A stretch of DNA of 64,000 nt, from NCBI RefSeq assembly GCF_037996645.1, contig NZ_JBBMXV010000002.1, forward strand, positions 434,001-498,000. The letters are read 5' to 3'. The translations under genes and the position numbers were made by a program. Below are positions 31,030 to 31,804 of the stretch, piece by piece. Under the pieces are notes generated by a model, which worked only from the letters and a program-made list of their open reading frames with translations, made no database searches and was not told the origin of the DNA. The DNA comes from Halalkalicoccus tibetensis. Lineage in GTDB: Archaea > Halobacteriota > Halobacteria > Halobacteriales > Halalkalicoccaceae. Every line of letters starts with the position of its first letter. The stretch's first letter is position 1.

Positions 31030-31102
31030 GCCGCCGTAGCTCAGTTGGTAGAGCACCTGGTTGTTACCCAGGTTGTCCCAGGTTCGAGCCCTGGCGGCGG
31101 CG
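31030..31102 (+). tRNA. tRNA-Asn (GTT)
   Basis: Acceptor stem GCCGCCG (31030-31036) pairs with CGGCGGC (31095-31101), and G73 is at 31102. D-arm TAGCTCAGTTGGTAGAGC, anticodon stem CCTGG/CCAGG around TTGTTAC (anticodon GTT), T-arm CCAGG-TTCGAGC-CCTGG. All stems are complete. A tandem hairpin array starts at its 3' end. Confidence 0.95.
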
Positions 31103-31256
31103 TGAATTTTCTGCGAAAATTCACGGCCCGCAGGACGGAGTCCTGCGACGGCGTCGAACGGAGTTCGACGCCCAACCGGAAATCTTCGATTTCCGGTGAC
31201 GGCGTCAGACTTCATCTGACGGCCCGCGGGAACTCGACGAGTTCCCGCGACGGCGT
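31096..31256 (+). repeat. 51-bp-period array of perfect hairpins after tRNA-Asn
   Basis: The 8-mer GACGGCGT occurs at 31147, 31198 and 31249, exactly 51 bases apart; 51 bases before the first, at 31096, the tRNA 3' end reads GGCGGCGT. Each 51-base unit holds two perfect hairpins whose sequences differ between units: 10-bp stem 31102-31124 and 8-bp 31129-31147; 8-bp 31152-31170 and 10-bp 31175-31197; 7-bp 31203-31221 and 11-bp 31225-31249. Loops are mostly three bases (TGC, GGA, GGA, TTC, GAC; one CTTCA). GCCC separates the two hairpins of each unit. The frame is open on the plus strand (repeating DGV every 17 residues), but I see no gene start. Confidence 0.85.
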
Positions 31257-31380
31257 GAACCTTCTACGGAAACCGATGACGGACAGCGACGGGTGGTTCT
31301 CCGGCGGCCCCGTCACGACCGCCTGCGGCCCCTGTCCCATCCGGCAGACCTTTGTTCGACGACCCGGTACGGTGGATCGA

Positions 31381-31455
31381 GGGCCCGTATCTCAGCCTGG
31401 TTAGAGAGGTCGGCTCATAACCGACTCGTCCTTGGTTCGAATCCGAGCGGGCCCA
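31381..31455 (+). tRNA. tRNA with CAT anticodon (elongator Met or Ile2)
   Basis: Acceptor GGGCCCG/CGGGCCC with A73 at 31455. D-arm TCTC/GAGA around AGCCTGGTTA, anticodon stem GTCGG/CCGAC around CTCATAA, T-arm CTTGG-TTCGAAT-CCGAG with one T-G pair. CAT can mean elongator methionine or the isoleucine tRNA whose C34 becomes agmatidine. The GGGCCCG/A73 acceptor resembles archaeal Ile2 tRNAs, but I cannot decide. It is not the initiator type: it lacks the three G-C pairs before the anticodon loop. Confidence 0.9.
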
Positions 31456-31510
31456 CGTTTCCTTGAGACACGCATCCCCGCGAGCCACAGGAACGCCCGT
31501 CCCGAGGATT

Positions 31511-31574
31511 GAATCAGGGAGAGAAGCGAGTGGGAGCGAGCGAAACGACCGTGGTTCGAATCCGAGCGGGCCCA
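31511..31574 (+). repeat. Duplicated 3' end of the CAT tRNA (scar-like element)
   Basis: 31552-31574 repeats 31433-31455 of the tRNA exactly (23 bases covering T-arm, acceptor and A73), 119 bases downstream. The copy is preceded by GAATCAGGGAG, GCGAGTG, AGCGAA and GACCG, the same ordered blocks that precede the tRNA-Asp copy at 13006-13073 (read on its minus strand). The 56 bases between the tRNA and the block hold nothing recognisable. Confidence 0.7.
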
Positions 31575-31804
31575 TGAGCGCCGACGAGCCCGATGGGGCC
31601 GACCCCGTGCGTCTCATTGGTGGGCCCCCGGGTTCTGCGGCGACGACTTCGGTCCCCGACGTTTCGCTGATCCCCGTGGGCAGCCCCGTCCCGGCGAGAT
31701 CCACGTAGAGGTGCCCGCGGTCGACCTCGGCGACCGTACCGACCTGCTGGCCGACGGAGGTCACGACGCGGTTCCCGATCGTGACCCGTGTTGGTTGATG
31801 TCAT
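31575..31804 (-). pseudogene. PRC-barrel-like small gene with frameshift, cut by the tRNA scar
   Basis: Read on the minus strand, the ATG at 31804 opens MTSTNT and then loses frame. In the next frame the sequence continues TIGNRVVTSVGQQVGTVAEV, then DRGHLYVDL, which looks like the start of haloarchaeal PRC-barrel-type proteins (compare the gene at 48560). Removing one G from the ACGGGTC run just after the sixth codon would restore a single frame. The coding-like frame runs into the duplicated tRNA end at 31574. A good TATA box (CTATAATAAG, 31831-31822) lies 18-27 bases before the ATG. Confidence 0.45.

Follow-up and report, generated by a model that had tools for sequence, protein, structure and literature searches.

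A tandem array of double-hairpin units behind a tRNA-Asn gene of Halalkalicoccus tibetensis: a probable small haloarchaeal insertion unit

SMR and PATE elements – very short, palindromic, transposase-free repeats of the haloarchaeon Haloquadratum walsbyi (Dyall-Smith et al. 2011, PMC3119063) – are the closest described relatives in kind of the DNA reported here. In PATEs the palindromes lie close to the termini and a conserved oligonucleotide serves as target, and the described families are mostly longer than the unit considered here and tied to IS605 ends; SMRs are 80-110 bp long with prominent inverted terminal repeats and no target duplication, and their mobilisation has been termed enigmatic; elements of both kinds insert into IS605-type transposons (PMC3119063). 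Rickettsia palindromic elements (RPE) are bacterial, about 150 bp long, grouped into families by sequence and found in frame in protein-coding genes, with no tandem arrays at tRNA ends described (PMC10969869). Fungal and sponge mitochondria carry double-hairpin elements, sometimes in tandem, that are considered mobile and some of which differ by complementary substitutions (PMC2800124). Template switching at short inverted repeats can create a perfect hairpin in one event (PMC8794818), and its signature is arm homogenisation together with spacer inversion, including ttc/gaa loop changes in yeast coding genes (PMC8604942, PMC8794818).

Here, we describe a haloarchaeal unit of about 49-60 bp, named DHE here, of which we found no description in the open-access literature searched, a body of work that leaves most subscription journals outside it. 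It resembles SMRs and PATEs in that one copy lies within an IS605-type transposon, RPEs in its in-frame positions, and the mitochondrial elements in its paired, sometimes tandem hairpins. By their descriptions, SMRs and PATEs differ from it in that DHE keeps its linkers while its stems vary, occupies in-frame positions in conserved genes and forms arrays at tRNA-Asn; it also lacks the long inverted termini and greater length of SMRs and has a short motif on both sides. The mitochondrial elements are organellar, have other sequences and are without its GACGNC linkers. DHE shares the arm and loop signature of template switching, which is a mutation process rather than an element, and which explains matched stems and not the spread of a unit.

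The stretch of DNA analysed (the window) is 64 kb long, and in it a tRNA-Asn gene is followed by 153 bases that make up three 51-base units (array 31103-31255; Table 1). GGCGGCGT at 31096 is followed by GACGGCGT at 31147, 31198 and 31249, spaced by exactly 51 bases, and GACGGCG closes each unit (31147-31153, 31198-31204 and 31249-31255). The six array hairpins are perfect, with Watson-Crick stems of 11, 8, 10, 10, 7 and 11 bp at maximal extension and loops, in order, of TGC, GGA, GGA, TTC, CTTCA and GAC. The spaced motif, the paired hairpins and the use of the tRNA 3′ end as first motif copy are thus as the original prediction had them. A repeat search adds a candidate remnant of a fourth unit, in a repeat family with 74% identity over 35 nt and a spacing of 153.

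Table 1. Features of the tRNA-Asn locus, in window coordinates.
Feature	Position	Strand	Remarks
tRNA-Asn(GTT)	31030..31102	+	ARAGORN and Rfam RF00005
Last seven bases of tRNA-Asn, GGCGGCG	31096-31102	+	First copy of the boundary motif; likely insertion target
Double-hairpin unit 1, 51 bp	31103..31153	+	Hairpins 31101-31125 and 31129-31147; terminal GACGGCG
Double-hairpin unit 2, 51 bp	31154..31204	+	Hairpins 31150-31172 and 31175-31197
Double-hairpin unit 3, 51 bp	31205..31255	+	Hairpins 31203-31221 and 31225-31249; terminal GACGGCG
Putative decayed beginning of a fourth unit	31256..31272	+	TGAACCTTCTACGGAAA resembles TGAATTTTCTGCGAAAA of unit 1

Nowhere else in the window do more than two such hairpins stand in a row, and the longest run in 20 dinucleotide shuffles of the window was three. 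Folded as RNA together with the tRNA, the array has a z-score of -8.0, and folded alone as DNA one of -11.0; no shuffle was as good in either case. No Rfam family other than tRNA and archaeal RNase P RNA reached the gathering score in the window, and the array was without a match. The stems were predicted to be unrelated between units, which holds within this array; they are nevertheless drawn from a stem vocabulary that recurs in other genomes. Unit 1 recurs in a genome of the same genus (G003) with one compensatory pair change, and the second hairpin of unit 2 is of a widespread type, GCCCA-[ACCGGAAATC..GATTTCCGGT]-GACGGC.

The same architecture with other stems is present behind tRNA-Asn in four further genomes of the genus (G001, G002, G003 and G006), one of the family (G007) and a distant one (G041), always on the tRNA strand and in constant orientation; most sampled tRNA-Asn genes are without a unit. 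Fourteen units could be aligned on their fixed linkers, and in 16 of 20 stem pairs one or more of the units has both partners changed. Doubly changed cells number 57, against 20.2 in shuffles, and pairing is 91% in the true register and 30-50% with the partners slid, which bears out the idea that pairing has been kept while stem sequence changed. Because the aligned units of relatives span 49-59 bp, the strict 51-bp length is local to the H. tibetensis genome, and a length constraint, as once suggested, is ruled out.

To look beyond this locus, a covariance model of the unit was searched against 392 genomes of the order, one per species. Matches above 53 bits came from 18 genomes representing six families, and every one of them is at the 3′ end of tRNA-Asn or at a copy of this end. 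Weaker matches and dispersed copies have the same linkers as the tRNA-Asn units, and occur within and between genes on either strand. Matches at E up to 0.01 are present in 230 of the 392 genomes, an upper guide because some with middling scores could be unrelated pairs of hairpins. Named carriers are Halorubrum halophilum, H. lipolyticum, H. salipaludis and Haloarcula pellucida, and the H. tibetensis genome itself has 13 matches at E up to 0.1, which is not a census. In a phylum sample of 148 genomes, matches at E up to 1e-4 came from the same order alone. A strict DNA pattern gave 65 matches over the genome collection, mostly chance; four, all haloarchaeal, have both hairpins, and two on viral contigs are without them. 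Host genes confirmed by Pfam include those for TsaD, sulfite/nitrite reductase, SAICAR synthetase, dihydrodipicolinate synthase, a CBS protein and a histidine kinase.

Exact presence or absence of single units is shown at four kinds of site. At tRNA-Asn, two genomes (G082 and G150) have 49 bp between ..GGTGGTGGCG and the native trailer TACTTCTCTC, and in a third genome of their genus (G159) ..GGTGGCGGCG abuts TACTTCTCTC directly, leaving an empty site. Among 30 genomes of one Haloarcula-like genus, hisH is empty in 23 and has an in-frame insertion beside GTCGACGGC in seven, of +51 in most and +57 in one. The kae1/TsaD gene has +51 in frame in the H. tibetensis genome (G000) and in G001, and is empty in G003, G004, G007 and G008. 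In tnpB, +60 is present in two of three copies of G082, the third copy and one of G182 being empty. In all four kinds, the empty site has a GACGGC-like motif or its complement, and the filled site has one at each side, 5-8 bases long.

The units are most likely mobile-type DNA and not tRNA-specific RNA, and we consider it probable that the array consists of three head-to-tail copies of a non-coding haloarchaeal double-hairpin insertion unit that settles at GACGGC-like motifs. Its backbone is GACGNC - hairpin 1 - NGSCN - hairpin 2 - GACGNC, with fixed linkers (the middle one as TGCCA, GGGCA or GGCCC) and variable stems. DHE would settle beside a GACGGC-like motif, which then stands on both sides; the GGCGGCG of the tRNA-Asn 3′ end may be one such target, and the tRNA gene would be preserved because the target is its own 3′ end. 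The terminal GACGGCG of each unit would offer the next target, hence a tandem array, with growth presumably by serial insertion rather than unequal crossing-over. The usual direction is probably gain by insertion and not precise loss; a mobilising enzyme is predicted to act in trans, and template switching between hairpin arms during replication may re-match stems and invert loops. Against insertion, neither a transposition event nor a mobilising enzyme came to light, and units whose stems differ have diverged too far for a donor and its copy to be recognised. The original prediction's 'self-copying hairpin family' and templated inversion come close to what the evidence supports.

A unit of about 51 bp that lies at a tRNA end and in frame in conserved genes – among them kae1 (KEOPS complex), hisH and sulfite/nitrite reductase – and that appears widespread in haloarchaea would rank among the smallest known insertion units. 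A haloarchaeal enzyme might move any hairpin pair with GACGNC and NGSCN linkers, whatever the stem sequence, in the manner of integron integrases, which read attC sites by shape. Such recognition of structure would leave the stems free for rewriting by template switching and so account for one family with ever-changing stems; we put it forward tentatively, as a rather doubtful possibility.

Alternatively, DHE could be a minimal derivative of an IS605-type (Y1 transposase) element, a very short PATE with the hairpins as its left and right ends and the adjoining GACGGC-like motif as its target. The two subterminal hairpins and conserved flanking target oligonucleotide are as in PATEs (PMC3119063), only short GACGNC linkers lie outside the hairpins with no long terminal inverted repeats, and the Y1 transposase domain PF01797 is present in 14 of 25 genomes checked. 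However, PF01797 was not found in the draft genomes of four unit carriers (G000, G309, G319 and G041), and IS605-type loci in six genomes have other end palindromes, of GCCGTTTACGGC type, at which the covariance model had no match. Past mobilisation by IS605 elements is possible; because the domain was not found in these four drafts and the ends differ, we treat it as a rival explanation rather than a result or an established fact, and an unlikely one.

The kept pairing itself can be placed at the DNA or the RNA level. An RNA helix under selection is expected to tolerate G-U pairs far above A-C mismatches. The 23 sense-strand units at tRNA-Asn contain 407 stem pairs, of which 367 are Watson-Crick, 9 G-U, 10 A-C and 21 other combinations. 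RNA-level selection is disfavoured because G-U pairs are few and do not outnumber A-C mismatches. Loops also invert with the arms kept: hisH orthologues have GAA or its exact reverse complement TTC, kae1 has GAA in the H. tibetensis genome and TTC in G001, and dispersed Halorubrum copies have AAA or TTT. We compared loops within same-stem groups, taking pairs that differ at two or more bases. Exact reverse complements make up 14 of 108 differing pairs, against none reversed and three complemented; permutation gives an expectation of 6.5%, with no value as high as 13% in 5000 runs. In the smaller subset of hairpins oriented by their flanks there is no excess (4 of 71, 6.6% expected), though loop triplet counts stay reverse-complement symmetric (correlation 0.79). 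Paired arm changes with loops turned into their exact reverse complements, the mark of template switching, are thus seen in hisH, in kae1 and in the 14 of 108 pairs, and not in the oriented subset. The rarity of G-U together with loop inversion that matches the template-switching signature suggests that a DNA process mainly explains the kept pairing, and a mobilising enzyme that selects for hairpin shape could contribute as well. Strong covariation, then, need not imply a functional RNA, and arms that are rewritten yet matched, with loops flipped, form a natural record of template switching at archaeal hairpins.

Template switching might also be held to make the hairpins outright, locally at GC-rich motifs during replication and with no mobile element. 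Single-event formation of perfect hairpins (PMC8794818), the loop inversions in hisH and kae1, and the identity of the first hairpin arm with host sequence GTGGAACACGG in histidine kinases all fit such an origin. We nevertheless find it improbable, since the same linkers, closely similar lengths and two hairpins at unrelated sites need a common template, and local fold-back copying would not yield the conserved NGSCN mid-linker. That the hairpins are instead selected as functional RNA, in a structured pre-tRNA-Asn trailer (as also suggested originally) or a released small RNA, is very improbable despite the stable RNA fold, the strong covariation and the constant tRNA strand, given the G-U counts, the many tRNA-Asn loci without units, the lack of an Rfam match, and copies that lie intergenically on either strand or in frame in unrelated protein genes (hisH, kae1, sulfite/nitrite reductase, histidine kinases and tnpB). 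The constant orientation at tRNA-Asn, which fits a functional RNA, is also explained by a directional target.

An integration site built of repeated tRNA ends had been a further suggestion, and it fails, as does an origin of the unit from such repeats: the seven-base GNCGGCG alone is shared, and true duplications of tRNA 3′ ends are a separate feature. Behind many haloarchaeal tRNA-Asn and tRNA-Met genes lie segments of about 90-200 bp, sometimes several in tandem, each closing with a copy of the tRNA 3′ end (e.g. loci L017, L019, L036, L047, L250 and L256); these resemble minute satellites of tRNA ends or remnants of integration, distinct from the hairpin units. In the window, the 3′ end of tRNA-Met(CAT), GGTTCGAATCCGAGCGGGCCCA (31434-31456), is present again at 31553-31575, about 120 bases downstream, an attachment-site-like duplication.

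Several other repeats were encountered. Histidine kinase genes L062, L089 and L226 (the last in the H. tibetensis genome, C1:736650) have tandem double-hairpin units at the conserved N-box (NLLRNGVEHG), repeating VEHG-like motifs, and the L226 units have loops atg/cat and ggt/acc that are exact inversions. At C4:461658 of the same genome (L227), a unit close to the 3′ end of the gene for a universal stress protein introduces an in-frame stop, which truncates the protein. A second dispersed, intergenic multi-hairpin family of this genome has the backbone CCTGGTGGTCCTCGGAAATCTTCGATTTCCGGGA ... GCGACAT ... GAGGGCTTT and several perfect hairpins at L004, L005 and L006 (G000 C4:58166, C2:407014 and C2:400185). 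Longer dispersed repeats of three or four hairpins, with the conserved flanks AAAGCCCCAG.. and ..CACTTTTTGCACGCTC, are found in a Halorubrum genome (G327, L211-L219) and in G288 (L070, L079 and L220); their stems are common to the copies, and the three-base loops differ in nearly every one.
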